A stretch of 64,000 nucleotides of DNA. Source: Acidimicrobiia bacterium. GTDB lineage: Bacteria > Actinomycetota > Acidimicrobiia > IMCC26256 > DASPTH01. Where the stretch lies: contig JBBDHW010000022.1 of the NCBI GenBank assembly GCA_040880805.1, positions 54,280 through 118,279 of the forward strand. The letters are read 5' to 3'. A program made the position numbers and the translations under genes. Positions 16,255-62,513 of the stretch are shown piece after piece (within the stretch, counting starts at the first letter, position 1; every line of letters begins with the position of its first letter). The notes under the pieces were generated by a model, which saw nothing but the letters and a program-made list of their open reading frames with translations, ran no database searches and was not told where the DNA came from.

Positions 16255-17580
16255 ATGAGCGAGACCACGGTCGAGATGGAGCAGCCGGCGATCGTCGTGT
16301 CGTGCGACTCGCACGCCGGGCCGAAGCTCGTGGAGCAGCTCCGGGCATACTGCCCGCAGCAGTATCTCGAGGCGTTCGACGAGGACGTCGTTGCGCAGCA
16401 GAAGCAGGCCGACGCGATGTCGGCGATGAGCGCGCGCATCCAGCACCCCAACATCGACCTCGACGGCCACTGGGATCCGCAGGCACGTCTCCGCGACATG
16501 GACAGCGACGGAGTGGCCGCGGAGCTGATCTGGCACTTCAGCCAGAACGGCGAGAACCTGCCGTGGATCGGGCAGGGGCTCGGCACCGTGTTCAAGCACC
16601 AGTTCGAGCTCGGCGCGGTCGCGTACGACATCTACAACCGCTGGCTCGCCGACTTCTGCTCGGAGGATCCCGAACGGCTCCTCGGCCTCGTCTACATCCC
16701 GAGCTGGGACATCGACGCGTCGATCAAGACGCTCGAATGGGCGCGCGAGAACGGCTTGCGCTGCCTCAACTTCCCCGCACCGAGCCGTCCGGGCGTGAAG
16801 GAGTACAACGACCCCGAGTGGGACCCGTTCTGGTCCGCGTGCACCGATCTCGGCTTCGCGCTCTCCACGCACTCGAGCGGCGGCCCGTTCTTCGACTTCA
16901 CGCGCGGGCCCGGCGGGATGCAGATCATCGCGTACGAAGGTGGAAGCTGGCTCGCACGCCGCGGTGTGTGGATCCTCACGTACGGCGAAGTCTTCCAGCG
17001 TCATCCCGAGCTCAAGCTCGTGATCACGGAGCAGGTCGAGGGCTGGTACGTGCCCACGATGCACGAGCTCGACTCCTTCTACCTCACCTTCGGTTTGAGC
17101 GGAGGCCTCACGAAGCTGCCGAGCGAGTACATCCGTCAGAACGTGTTCCTCGGCGCGAGTTTCATCTCACCGTGGCAAGCGGAGGACGCGGTCGAGCACA
17201 ACTACGTCGACAACGTGCTCTGGGGTCGCGACTACCCGCACATCGAAGGCGTGTTCCAGGCAACGAGGGAGCCCGACGAGGAACCGATGACGAAGCTCGC
17301 GCTGCGTCACGTGTTCTCGCGGATCCCCACCGGCGACGCGCTCGAGATCCTCGGTCGGAACGCGATCAAGGTGTTCGATCTCGACGAGGAGCACCTGCGG
17401 AAGGTCGCGGCCCGCATCGGCGCGTCCACACCGGCGCAGCTCCTGGTCGCGCCCGACCCCGAGTCGCTTCCGCCCAACGACGGGAACGGCTTCATCGGCC
17501 AGTCTGGTCCGCGCCCGGTCGAGCCCGCGCGTGTCGAGCGTGCGGAGCGGCGCCGGGCGCAGGTCTCAGCGAACGGGTGA
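16255..17580 (+). CDS. Amidohydrolase-2 family protein (ACMSD-like TIM barrel)
   Basis: 441 residues from ATG 16255, preceded by GGGGGAG. The first metal-binding strand reads VSCDSHAGP, with D-x-H in place of HxH. STHSSGG, LVITEQVEGWYVPTMHELD and LWGRDYPHIEGVF are the usual amidohydrolase-2 positions for later ligands, including the final Asp. Relatives in actinomycetes hydrolyse or decarboxylate aromatic and ring-cleavage acids. The reaction here is unknown. The C-terminal 60 residues are charged and variable. It converges on the related gene at 17566. Confidence 0.82.
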   Translation: MSETTVEMEQPAIVVSCDSHAGPKLVEQLRAYCPQQYLEAFDEDVVAQQKQADAMSAMSARIQHPNIDLDGHWDPQARLRDMDSDGVAAELIWHFSQNGENLPWIGQGLGTVFKHQFELGAVAYDIYNRWLADFCSEDPERLLGLVYIPSWDIDASIKTLEWARENGLRCLNFPAPSRPGVKEYNDPEWDPFWSACTDLGFALSTHSSGGPFFDFTRGPGGMQIIAYEGGSWLARRGVWILTYGEVFQRHPELKLVITEQVEGWYVPTMHELDSFYLTFGLSGGLTKLPSEYIRQNVFLGASFISPWQAEDAVEHNYVDNVLWGRDYPHIEGVFQATREPDEEPMTKLALRHVFSRIPTGDALEILGRNAIKVFDLDEEHLRKVAARIGASTPAQLLVAPDPESLPPNDGNGFIGQSGPRPVEPARVERAERRRAQVSANG

Positions 17581-18834
17581 CGAAAGAGGCAGCGGGTCGC
17601 CCATCCGGTCGAACACGTCGGCCATCGAGCCGTGGAAGAAGCGCTCCTGTACCGCGGCGTCGATGTCGCCGAAGTGCTCGCGGTACCAGGTGACGGCGTC
17701 GTTGTCGAGCCCCTCGGGATGCGGGTAGTCGCTCGAGAACACGAGCATCCCGTCGAGCTCCTCGAGGTAGTCGCGGACGGGCATGGTCACCACAGGCAAC
17801 GGCGACACGCGCACATTGCGGCGCGCGTACTCGCTCGGCTTCAGCGGGTAGTCGAACGCGCCCTGCAGGCTCGAGATCTTCGGGTCGTCGACGAACGCGT
17901 CGAGCCACCCGAGGAAGTTCGGGATCCAGATGTGGCCGCCGAGCTCGGCGTTGACGACGGTGAGAGTGGGGAAGCGCTCGAAGACGCCACCGGTGACCAG
18001 CGCACCGCAGAGCATCGTGGGCACCTGCTGGTACTGCGCGGCGCCCATCATCGTGACCGCGCGGAACGTACCGCCGTTGTTCGACCACGCCGGATCGACG
18101 TGCGCGCGGCCGCTTCCCGCGTGGAGGTATGCGACCATCCCGAGGTCGGTGACCGCGGCCCAGAAGGGGTCGAAGTGCGGATGCGCGAGCGACCTGCCGT
18201 CGACCGGAGTCGCGCGGATGTGCACGGCGCGGCTCCCGAGGCCCCGCATGCGCGTCATCTCGCCGATCGACCACTCGAGGTCTTCCATCATCACGAACGT
18301 GATGGGGACGAGACGGTCGATGTGCGCGCCGATGCGGTCGATCATCAGCTGGTTCGCGGCCGCGATGCACTGGCGGGCGAGGTCGGGGTCGATGCCCGGG
18401 TAGATCGGCGCGCCGTTTCCCGACACGAGCTGCACGTCGATGCCGGCCTCGTGGAGGAAGCCGACGCGGTCGTCCATGTTCCAGCCGCCCTTCGCTCGGA
18501 AGAGACGGTCGAGCCGGGGTGCGAGGGGCCCGGCACCGAGGGGCGTGTCGGTGCCGTAGATCATCTCGTCGATCTCGGCGAGGCTCGACTTCGACGCGAA
18601 CTGCTCGGCGAGTGGCTTCCAGAGGTCGGGGACGAGCTCCATCATGTCGTCGGGCCGAAGTTCGGGCGGCAAGGTGGAGAGCGCTTCGCCGCTGAGCGCG
18701 CCGACGAGCGCCCCGATCATCATCTCGGCCGGGATCGTCGGGAGCTGCGCCGCCAGCTCCGGGAAGTCCTGCTCGAACCACGTGAACGGGCCCTGGAAAT
18801 GGCTGTCGACGTCGATGACGGGCACGAGGTTCAC
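17566..18834 (-). CDS. Amidohydrolase-2 family protein
   Basis: 422 residues from GTG 18834, which shares four bases (GTGA) with the stop of the upstream gene at 18831. The N-terminal VIDVDSHF carries the D-x-H pair. YLHAGSGRAHVD, VVNAELGGHIWIPNFLGW and LVFSSDYPHPEGL follow the family pattern, with Asp in SSDYPHPEG as the final catalytic residue. Hydrolase or decarboxylase activity on an acidic substrate is expected. Translation appears coupled to the glucosidase-like protein, which is an unusual partner. The 3' ends of 17566 and 16255 overlap by 15 bp. Confidence 0.82.
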   Translation of the reverse strand: MNLVPVIDVDSHFQGPFTWFEQDFPELAAQLPTIPAEMMIGALVGALSGEALSTLPPELRPDDMMELVPDLWKPLAEQFASKSSLAEIDEMIYGTDTPLGAGPLAPRLDRLFRAKGGWNMDDRVGFLHEAGIDVQLVSGNGAPIYPGIDPDLARQCIAAANQLMIDRIGAHIDRLVPITFVMMEDLEWSIGEMTRMRGLGSRAVHIRATPVDGRSLAHPHFDPFWAAVTDLGMVAYLHAGSGRAHVDPAWSNNGGTFRAVTMMGAAQYQQVPTMLCGALVTGGVFERFPTLTVVNAELGGHIWIPNFLGWLDAFVDDPKISSLQGAFDYPLKPSEYARRNVRVSPLPVVTMPVRDYLEELDGMLVFSSDYPHPEGLDNDAVTWYREHFGDIDAAVQERFFHGSMADVFDRMGDPLPLSSPVR

Positions 18835-34246: not shown

Positions 34247-35143
34247 GTGTCCTCACGAGACGCAGGTTGGGCCGCGATGGTCGACGAGATTGCTCCGGGT
34301 GCAACGCTCCGGCGCGTCCGTCGACTCGGTGGAGGCCTCGCCACCGACACCTTCGCGGTCGATCTCGACGGCTCGGGCATTCGGCGGCTCGTCGTGAAGC
34401 GCTTCAAGCTTGGCGACGACAGGGCGCCGATCGAGTGGGATCGGCTCTCCTTCGCGCAACGGGTCGACGCGCCGGTTCCGGAACCGGTCGCGGTGGATGC
34501 GGACGGTCGCTGGTTCGGCGCCGCGGCCATCGTGATGACACGACTGCCGGGGCGTGCCGACCTCGCTCCTGTCGACGTCGATACGTGGTTGCTGGAGCTG
34601 GCGGGCACGATGGCGCGGGTGCACGAGACTTCGACTCGCGGCGCCGGAAGTGCGATTCGATGGCTTCCACACGTTGAAGCTTGGGAGCCCGACACACAGC
34701 TTCGATCGACTCCTTTGAGCGACCGTGCCGTGGATGCCATCGAGCGGTACCTGCCGCGCGCGACGTGGCAGTCGGTCCTCACACACGGCGACTTCCACCC
34801 GGGCAACATTCTGTGGAGTTGGCGCGCGCTGAGCGGCGTCGTCGATTGGAACGCAGCGCGGCTCGGACCCCGCTGGTACGAGGTTGCGTATCTACGAGCC
34901 GACGCGGCACTGCTTCTCGGCGGCGATGTGGCCGATCGCTTTGCCCGCAGCTACTCCGACATCGTCGCTCAACCGCCGGTCGATCTACCGCTGTTCGACC
35001 TGATCTGTGGCCTGCGTGCCCGCCAGTGGTGTGGTGCCTGGCTCGGCGCGTACCGCGAGCAGGGACTGGTCGCGACGCGTCGTCAGTTCGCGGCCCGCGT
35101 CACACCCTTCCTGCAACGCGCGCTGGCCGAGCTCGGCGTGTAA
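34247..35143 (+). CDS. Aminoglycoside phosphotransferase (APH) family kinase
   Basis: 298 residues from GTG 34247. It has a nucleotide-binding lobe (VRRLGGGLATDTFAV, with the ATP Lys in LVVKRF), the catalytic loop THGDFHPGNIL near residue 178, and metal-binding Asp in VVDWNAARLG near 200. Such kinases phosphorylate choline, homoserine, acyl carriers or antibiotics; the acceptor is unknown. Although downstream of the AtuA gene it has its own promoter box. It is convergent with the LLM gene at 35161. Confidence 0.82.
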   Translation: MSSRDAGWAAMVDEIAPGATLRRVRRLGGGLATDTFAVDLDGSGIRRLVVKRFKLGDDRAPIEWDRLSFAQRVDAPVPEPVAVDADGRWFGAAAIVMTRLPGRADLAPVDVDTWLLELAGTMARVHETSTRGAGSAIRWLPHVEAWEPDTQLRSTPLSDRAVDAIERYLPRATWQSVLTHGDFHPGNILWSWRALSGVVDWNAARLGPRWYEVAYLRADAALLLGGDVADRFARSYSDIVAQPPVDLPLFDLICGLRARQWCGAWLGAYREQGLVATRRQFAARVTPFLQRALAELGV

Positions 35144-59556: not shown

Positions 59557-60087
59557 TCAGCCGAGAGATTCGAGCCACGCACGCACTCCACACGGTGAGT
59601 GCAGCGTGATCCACCCGAGGTGTGACCATTCCGGGTCGCGCTGGAGGGTGCGGTACCGGTCGGGGTATTTCGGGTACTCGTTCCAGACGAACCGCAGGAT
59701 CGAGTCGTGTGCAAAGAACGAGTTCCGGATCGACTCGCGGTTTCCTGACCACAGCTCTGTGCGCAGGGTCGCCCGCCGAATCGTCCGTGTGAACACGCGC
59801 CGCACGACGGTGCGCCTCGGGAGGTCGAGGAACACGATGGTGTCGGCGCGCGGCCACACGATGTCGGCCGACCCCAACGAGAAGTAGTTCCCGTCGATGA
59901 CCCACTCGTCACCGGCGGCTGCGGCGCGGAAGCGCCCGCGGAGCGTGTCGTTGTCGACCGGCGTCCAGTCGGGTCCCCAGTGCAACGCGTCGAGCTCGAT
60001 TCGCGGCAACTCGAGCCGGCGAGCGATCTCGGTGGCCGTGGTGGTCTTGCCGGAACCGGGAGCTCCGACGACAATGATCCGGCGCAA
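59557..60087 (-). CDS. Adenylate kinase-like P-loop NTPase (topology modulation protein family)
   Basis: 176 residues from TTG 60087. VVGAPGSGKTTTATEIARRL is the P-loop; ELDALHWGPDWTPVDNDTLRGRF and DEWVIDGNYFS follow the family of small kinase-like proteins annotated as topology modulation proteins. IRRATLRTELWSGNRES provides lid arginines. The substrate is unknown. TTG 60087 is preferred to TTG 60138 because a TACGCT box lies 7 nt upstream and the protein then starts just before the P-loop strand, as in relatives. Confidence 0.8.
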   Translation of the reverse strand: MRRIIVVGAPGSGKTTTATEIARRLELPRIELDALHWGPDWTPVDNDTLRGRFRAAAAGDEWVIDGNYFSLGSADIVWPRADTIVFLDLPRRTVVRRVFTRTIRRATLRTELWSGNRESIRNSFFAHDSILRFVWNEYPKYPDRYRTLQRDPEWSHLGWITLHSPCGVRAWLESLG

Positions 60088-60094
60088 GCCGCCG

Positions 60095-60100
60095 AGCGTA
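60095..60100 (-). promoter_or_regulatory. -10 box of P-loop kinase gene
   Basis: TACGCT on the minus strand, 7 nt before TTG 60087. Confidence 0.4.
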
Positions 60101-60148
60101 GGGATTATTCGCTCACGCGTTCCGGCAATTCGCGGCAAGCTCAGGGCG

Positions 60149-61648
60149 ATGGCGTCGCTCCAGATCCGTCGCTACGAGCCGCGTGACTTCCAGCGCGTTC
60201 TCGAGCTGCACGTGCTCGGCCTGCGCCAGACCGGCACCGACCTGGGCCCCGGTTCCTGGGATGCCGATGTCGCGTCGCACGAGGCACTCGCCGCGAACTA
60301 TCTCGACGTGCGCGGGGATTTTGTGGTTGGCGAGCTCGAAGGCGTGATCGTGGCGATGGGCGCGCTCCGTCCCTTCGACGACACCCGCGTCGAGATGAAG
60401 CGCGTACGCGTGCACCCCGACCACCAGCGCCTCGGGTTTGGTGACGCGATCGTCGAACGGCTCGAGCAAGCCGCGCGGGAGCTCGGGTACGACGCCGTCC
60501 ACCTCGATACGACCACGCAGCAGGAACCGGCGATCGCGATGTACTTGAAGCGCGGCTATCACGAGGTCGGACGTGCCGCGCTCCGACGGTTCGATCTCGT
60601 GCTGATGGAGAAGCCGCTCGTGCCGGGGCCGCCGCCAGCCATCCTCGCGCAGCGCGTGGCGACGGCGTTTGCGCTCGGCGGCGTACACGGCATCGAACCG
60701 GTCGTCGGTGGCCTGCTCAACCGGATGTGGAAGCTCGACACCGACACGGGCTCGTTCGCGGTGAAGCAGCTCGTGGACCGGCCGTGGGTTGCCGACTGGT
60801 CCGCACGTCAGGCGCGCTGCTTCGACTTCGAGCTGGCGGCGCATGCCGCAGGTATCCCGATGCCACCGCCAGTCGCGAATCCGGCGACAGGCGACGCCAT
60901 GGCGTGGCTGGCTGCGATTGGCGAGCCGCCGCTCCCCGTGGTTGTTCACGAATGGCTGCGCGGGGAGCCGCTGCCGCTCGCGGCGGTGAGCGCCAACGTC
61001 GCGCACCAGGTTGGCGCCGCACTTGCGCGGATCCACGGGCTGGGCATCGAGGTCATGTCCGCCGAGCGCGCCGCGCTCACGAGCGCACCGATGCCGACAC
61101 GCGATGAATGGTCCGAGCTCGCCCGTCGCGGCGAGGCATCGGGCGAGAGCTGGGCCGCCGATCTGGCCGACGCGGTCGACGCCCTCGCGGCGATCGGGAT
61201 ACGCGTAGAAGAGCTCTCCGAGGTCCCCGGGCGTGTCGTGATCGGCCATCGAGACGCGAACCAGAAGAACCTCGTGATGGTCGACGGCACGGTGCACCTG
61301 GTCGACTGGGAGAATGCGGGAGCCACGACCGTCGAATGGGAGCTCGGTAGCACGGCGATCGACCTCACCGGCGGCAGCCCGAGCGCAGTTCGTGCGTTCT
61401 TCGACGGCTACCGCTCCGTCGACCCTGAACCCCTCCCACCGGTCGGCGACCACTGGCTGGTGCCCTGGCTGTCGAGCTACATGCATTTCGCGGCCTTCAA
61501 CGCGCGGCGATGCCTCGGTGACTACGGCGACAAGCCCACCAATCTCGACATCCCCCGCCGCGTGATGCAGGACGCGCTCGCCGACTTGCCCTATCGGCTC
61601 CACCGCGTACCCGAGCTGGTCGGCGCGCTCCGAGCCGCGGTCAGCTGA
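60149..61648 (+). CDS. GNAT acetyltransferase - APH phosphotransferase fusion
   Basis: 499 residues from ATG 60149. The N-terminal GNAT domain spans about 1-155: VRVHPDHQRLGFGDAIVERLEQAA is the acetyl-CoA loop and helix, and AIAMYLKRGYHEVGR the usual end. From about 175 an APH-type kinase follows, with an ATP Lys in SFAVKQLVD, catalytic loop IGHRDANQKNLVM near residue 365 and metal Asp in LVDWENAG near 386. The order and size match the bifunctional AAC(6')-APH(2'') enzyme, but sequence similarity to it was not tested and the acceptor is unknown. Its end overlaps the LLM gene by 8 bp. Confidence 0.85.
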   Translation: MASLQIRRYEPRDFQRVLELHVLGLRQTGTDLGPGSWDADVASHEALAANYLDVRGDFVVGELEGVIVAMGALRPFDDTRVEMKRVRVHPDHQRLGFGDAIVERLEQAARELGYDAVHLDTTTQQEPAIAMYLKRGYHEVGRAALRRFDLVLMEKPLVPGPPPAILAQRVATAFALGGVHGIEPVVGGLLNRMWKLDTDTGSFAVKQLVDRPWVADWSARQARCFDFELAAHAAGIPMPPPVANPATGDAMAWLAAIGEPPLPVVVHEWLRGEPLPLAAVSANVAHQVGAALARIHGLGIEVMSAERAALTSAPMPTRDEWSELARRGEASGESWAADLADAVDALAAIGIRVEELSEVPGRVVIGHRDANQKNLVMVDGTVHLVDWENAGATTVEWELGSTAIDLTGGSPSAVRAFFDGYRSVDPEPLPPVGDHWLVPWLSSYMHFAAFNARRCLGDYGDKPTNLDIPRRVMQDALADLPYRLHRVPELVGALRAAVS

Positions 61649-62513
61649 CGAGCGCGGGCGCGAGCGCGCGCCACTGGTCGAGCGGGAGGTTCTGGATACC
61701 GCGTGGCGTCGCGACCTGCACGCACACGTGGTCGGCGCCGGCGTCGAAGTGGTCCTGCACGCGCCGCGCGATCGCGGCCTCGTCACCCCACGCCACCACG
61801 CCGTCGACGAGCCGGTCGCTCCCACCGTCGCTCACGTCGTCGTCGGTGAAGCCGATCCGCTTCAGGTTGTTCACGTAGTTCGGCAGTGTCAGGTAGATCG
61901 TGAAGTGCGCGCGTGCGAGGTCGCGTGCGGCCGAGGGGTCGGTCTCGAGTACGACGGGCTGCTCGGGCATCAAGAGCGGCCCGTCACCGAGGACCTCGCG
62001 GGCCATCCGCGTGTGATCGGGGTTAGCCAGGTACGGGTGCGCGCCGCGCGTCCGGTCACGCGCGAGCTTCAGCATCTTCGGCCCGAGCGCCGCGAGTGCA
62101 CGTTCCGCGATCGGTACGGGCGGGTCGGCCGCGTCGAGCGCGTCGAGGTACGACTTCGTGACCGCCATCGGTTTCCGGTATCGACCGGCTTGGTCGCGGT
62201 CGACGAGCGCGGAGTGGCTCACGCCCACACCGAGGAGGAACCGTCCCGGGTGTGCCGCAGTCAACGCCGCGTGGCCCGTCGCGACGTCGGCGGGATCGTG
62301 CATCCAGAGGTTGAGGATCCCGGTCGCGACCGTGACACGTTCGGTGGCGTCGAGCAGCGCGCCGCAATCGCCGAGGACGCCACCTCCGGCGCCGCCGGGT
62401 ACCCACAGCGCGGAGTACCCGAGACCTTCGAGCTCCGCGGCCGCGTCGAGCGCCGCCGCGCGATCGCCGTAACGGAGCCCGCCACTCCACACGCCCGTGC
62501 CGTGCAGATCCAT
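61641..62513 (-). CDS. F420-dependent LLM class oxidoreductase (TIGR03620-like)
   Basis: 290 residues from ATG 62513, GGGAGG upstream on the minus strand. LLM barrel: ELEGLGYSALWVPGGAGGGVLGDCGALLDAT, VTVATGILNLWMHDPADVATGHAAL, HPGRFLLGVGVSHS. The loop positions fit the F420-binding MSMEG-type subfamily. Probably reduces or oxidises a ketone, alcohol or alkene with F420. It is divergent from the SDR at 62585. Confidence 0.87.
   Translation of the reverse strand: MDLHGTGVWSGGLRYGDRAAALDAAAELEGLGYSALWVPGGAGGGVLGDCGALLDATERVTVATGILNLWMHDPADVATGHAALTAAHPGRFLLGVGVSHSALVDRDQAGRYRKPMAVTKSYLDALDAADPPVPIAERALAALGPKMLKLARDRTRGAHPYLANPDHTRMAREVLGDGPLLMPEQPVVLETDPSAARDLARAHFTIYLTLPNYVNNLKRIGFTDDDVSDGGSDRLVDGVVAWGDEAAIARRVQDHFDAGADHVCVQVATPRGIQNLPLDQWRALAPALVS

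Follow-up and report, generated by a model that had tools for sequence, protein, structure and literature searches.

The open reading frame at 60149-61648 (+) of the 64,000-nucleotide stretch of DNA analysed here (the window) joins a GNAT acetyltransferase to an APH-fold phosphotransferase and probably encodes a real chromosomal two-domain enzyme, fused independently in its lineage, that modifies small molecules with two activities. A sequence-only reading of this DNA had left a choice between an independent fusion, an ancestor-like resistance enzyme and a modifier of another metabolite. The independent fusion has held, since homologues of both halves stand alone and no fused homologue was found; the ancestor-like resistance enzyme has not, and a modifier of another metabolite is the likeliest of these readings.

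Reading frame and domain organization

The fusion gene (60149-61648, + strand, stop codon included) runs uninterrupted for 499 codons from its ATG start to its stop. A codon score trained on the neighbouring genes was calculated in 240-base sliding windows starting from 60140 to 61460; this frame scored best in every one of them, those crossing the junction between the two domains included, and a long antisense ORF over the same positions scored lower in each of these windows. GC3 is 0.84 in the GNAT half and the same in the APH half. The frame is coding over its full length, and nothing in it points to a frameshift.

Both domains were recognized by hmmscan above their Pfam cut-offs, which, together with the open frame, confirms the earlier description of one 499-residue protein with a complete acetyltransferase and a complete phosphotransferase. 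The N-terminal GNAT domain (residues 1-158; 60149-60622, +) matches Acetyltransf_1 (PF00583) over residues 47-137 (E = 1.7e-17, 64.2 bits against a cut-off of 20.7), placing it in the GNAT superfamily. The C-terminal domain (60656-61645, +) matches APH (PF01636) over residues 182-427 (E = 8.8e-17, 62.1 bits against a cut-off of 23.2), placing it in the APH fold; choline/ethanolamine kinase (PF01633) was rejected, its 26.9 bits lying below the cut-off of 29. The motifs that had been read from the letters are present: the CoA pyrophosphate loop QRLGFG at residues 93-98 (alignment A3, with five stand-alone GNATs), and in the APH half the kinase lysine Lys206, HRDANQKN at 367-374 and DWEN at 386-389. 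Lys206, His367-x-Asp369, Asn374 and Asp386 fall in invariant columns of alignments A1 and A4 (Lys46, His207, Asp209, Asn214 and Asp226 in P0003 numbering). A divergent six-row alignment varied too much to support a pattern scan, structure prediction of the fusion with one homologue gave a pLDDT of 38.9 and a pTM of 0.34, and PADLOC returned no match.

The two domains are connected by a short proline-rich linker, PGPPPAILAQR (about residues 159-169; 60623-60655, +), whose limits are set by the points at which stand-alone GNATs end and the APH alignment starts. Five stand-alone GNATs of about 160 residues (L003, L004 and proteins from Nonomuraea, Bradyrhizobium and Haladaptatus) align with 32-45% identity across the whole GNAT half and stop at the strand equivalent to LVLMEKPL (residues 150-157); the terminal strand of the GNAT half, LVLMEKPLV, matches theirs. 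The alignment of stand-alone Streptomyces phosphotransferases (about 340 residues) to the fusion begins at about residue 169. Because the stand-alone GNATs end and the phosphotransferases begin at the junction, the fusion consists of two complete proteins linked by about ten proline-rich residues. A TGATG string at the junction is a stop only when read in another frame, and the alignment can be explained without it.

Genomic context

The divergent neighbour of the fusion is a small P-loop nucleotide kinase-like gene (59557-60138, -), identified from its ORF and Pfam match and with an uncertain true start. The convergent neighbour, identified in the same way, encodes a luciferase-like monooxygenase (61641-62513, -) and overlaps the stop end of the fusion by 8 bases. 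The neighbours seen comprise Abhydrolase_10, SnoaL, luciferase-like and SDR proteins and, by eye, a xanthine dehydrogenase-like protein; they fit the catabolic region that had been proposed for this locus, and no mobile element is among them, again as proposed. The window contains a second APH-domain gene at 34316-34957 (+) (G000:C22:88595-89236, in a frame of 301 residues).

Relatives and distribution

The closest relatives of the GNAT half are stand-alone proteins of about 160 residues that, unlike the window fusion, carry no fused APH domain; they come from a genome of the same order (L003), Nonomuraea gerenzanensis, Bradyrhizobium sp. 187 and Haladaptatus salinisoli, the best being 45% identical. 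For the APH half they are stand-alone Streptomyces phosphotransferases (L094 from S. megasporus, which is the same protein as Streptomyces L049, and WP_234008815.1 from Streptomyces sp. Mg1), which are about 28-33% identical over most of its length and share its catalytic residues but have no GNAT domain. A family profile of the APH half, which leans on Streptomyces members, gave homoserine kinase (PDB code 2ppq, 48 bits), NahK (4wh1, 40 bits) and amicoumacin kinase (6sui, 39 bits) among its best PDB matches, all of them distant; a two-sequence profile made from the window protein and one relative found nothing significant in the PDB.

No fused counterpart of the whole protein turned up among 58 genomes of the order. 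Beyond its own genome, the APH half gave only two weak matches among 395 genomes of the class, neither in a frame with a GNAT domain, and a few matches of the stand-alone type among 397 genomes of the phylum (the three samples overlap). Across 150 genomes of Streptomyces, which belongs to a different class from the actinobacterial source genome, the GNAT and APH halves lie in separate genes. Phage and plasmid records contained no fused homologue, scanned viral contigs held no relatives, and scanned genome contigs gave nothing with the whole protein and only S. megasporus with the APH pair. We found no report of environmental GNAT-APH fusions in the open library of papers searched. Among the genomes searched, the fusion is thus restricted to its source genome.

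APH-domain genes as such were present in all 40 scanned genomes of the order. In the source genome the number of APH-domain loci is about 25 at E = 1e-3 and 20 at E = 1e-10, the latter being the second highest count among the 40; by eye, some of these loci encode UbiB-like or PknB-like kinases.

A further GNAT-APH fusion in the source genome

The source genome encodes a second GNAT-APH fusion of 437 residues (G000:C48:78675-79985, -; locus L078, 2176-3486), with Acetyltransf_3 (PF13302) at residues 15-155 and an APH domain in its second half. It draws on other GNAT and APH subfamilies and shows no significant similarity to the 60149-61648 fusion. Stand-alone homologues exist for its GNAT half (52% identity, G043) and its APH half (53%, G097), and the two halves are joined in no other genome among the 395 of the class. 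Two further places in the genome have neighbouring GNAT and APH genes, convergent with an 8-base overlap on C24 (L080, 1707-2417, +, and 2410-3372, -) and in tandem on C33 (L079, 1441-2199 and 2341-3303, +). Four close GNAT/APH pairs were observed against 0.53 expected by random placement (P ~ 0.0016), a statistic that was counted after the fusion had been seen and takes GNATs as PF00583 only. The C24 region also contains L031, which the profile ranks as the nearest APH paralogue, and an APH-NUDIX fusion in one frame is found at L033 (G000:C44, around 17155-17784, -).

Alternative explanations

The two halves could be separate genes in life, with the single frame resulting from an assembly or consensus error in the GC-rich junction (gccggggccgccgccagcc) that deleted a stop or caused a frameshift. 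Such an error is possible because the genome is a draft of 69 contigs, and both halves have stand-alone homologues, none of them fused. However, the GNAT alignment keeps to one frame up to and including the final strand (MEKPL), the APH alignment picks up again in that frame some ten residues further on, and the codon signal is even across the junction; moreover, the second fusion in the genome is clean, and it would be a coincidence for two such errors to affect the same combination of domain types. We therefore consider an assembly error behind the fusion unlikely. A protein in which one half is degenerate or regulatory and only the other is active might be suspected from the divergence of the APH half, whose best relatives reach only the 28-33% identity given above, but the protein retains every kinase motif residue, a conserved tyrosine and the CoA loop of its GNAT half, and we regard this reading as very improbable.

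A further possibility is that the fusion confers resistance by acetylating and phosphorylating aminoglycosides and is distantly related, or ancestor-like, to the well-known bifunctional clinical (hospital) enzyme AAC(6')-Ie-APH(2'')-Ia. The domain order is identical and the length similar (499 versus 479 residues), the GNAT half gives weak NCBIfam scores for AAC(3)-I (22.8 bits) and AAC(6')-Ia (17.4 bits), and in a PDB search with the single sequence AAC3-I ranks second. Against this, the profile comparison suggested in the sequence-only reading gave 15-17 bits for the NCBIfam AAC(6') models, with cut-offs of 140-265, and nothing for the APH(2'') models even at E = 10, so that both assignments were rejected; the clinical enzyme, run as a control with a sequence that matches annotated plasmid genes at 100% identity along 479 residues, scored 473 bits for AAC(6')-Ie and 634.5 bits for APH(2'')-Ia. 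The APH half has sub-threshold NCBIfam matches only (e.g. LxmK, thiamine kinase, GntI and homoserine kinase), and BLASTP of the fusion against the clinical enzyme was at chance level (E = 2.3). In a tblastn search of 72,556 plasmids the APH half found no resistance aph gene, matching one record, a Streptomyces phosphotransferase, and the whole protein matched 109 records, the best 20 of which were generic GNATs and the Streptomyces phosphotransferase, with no aac gene; the clinical enzyme matched 4,318 records in the same set. Profiles point the same way: no AAC(6') is listed down to 1e-6 when the GNAT family profile is compared with solved structures, APH(2'') is absent at E = 0.1 from the PDB matches of the APH family profile, where APH(3')-IIa and spectinomycin phosphotransferase lie far down, and when scored with that profile the APH(2'')-Ia half ranks lower than ordinary APHs from the source genome. 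In a poorly resolved maximum-likelihood tree of 20 APHs, whose supports are weak, the window APH lies with Streptomyces relatives in an open fork, apart from APH(2''). Neither the GNAT half nor the APH half has a specific relationship to AAC(6') or APH(2''), which counts against the ancestor-like resistance enzyme and makes this explanation quite improbable; both halves belong to other branches of their families and are of non-clinical descent.

Proposed origin and function

The proposed small-molecule modifier, fused independently in this lineage, probably arose when a GNAT gene lost its stop codon and was thereby joined to the APH gene next to it. The N-terminal half would then carry out acetyl-CoA-dependent N-acetylation of an amine and the C-terminal half ATP- or GTP-dependent phosphorylation of a hydroxyl, with both halves active on the same or linked small molecules in a common substrate pathway. 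The likelier substrate is an antibiotic-like or metabolic amine/hydroxyl compound, either met in the environment or made by the organism itself, rather than a 2-deoxystreptamine aminoglycoside. No orthologous fusion is known and conservation therefore cannot support function. It is conceivable, although we hold it only tentatively and think it rather doubtful, that GNAT and APH genes of different subfamilies have been joined more than once, and independently, in this lineage because their chemistries act on shared small molecules, in a natural convergence on the AAC-APH architecture beyond the resistance genes of the clinic.

If both halves act on one compound, the two-in-one layout of a major resistance enzyme would arise repeatedly from ordinary chromosomal genes, and the presence of two GNAT-APH fusions in one genome would make it possible to test directly for selection on the pairing. 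Otherwise, in an order where APH-domain genes are found in every genome scanned and about 25 loci are found here, domain order by itself would be no marker of a resistance gene.

Comparison with bifunctional aminoglycoside enzymes

Bifunctional aminoglycoside enzymes are already known and have been reviewed (PMC6017855). The window fusion shares with the AAC(6')-APH(2'') enzymes the succession of GNAT and APH within one polypeptide, and the likeness in order and size that had been remarked on is true as bare architecture. As in AAC(6')-Ie-APH(2'')-Ia, an N-terminal GNAT domain is followed by a C-terminal APH fold, but the best GNAT Pfam family is Acetyltransf_1 in the window fusion and Acetyltransf_8 in the clinical enzyme, and the window fusion, unlike the latter, is a chromosomal single copy.
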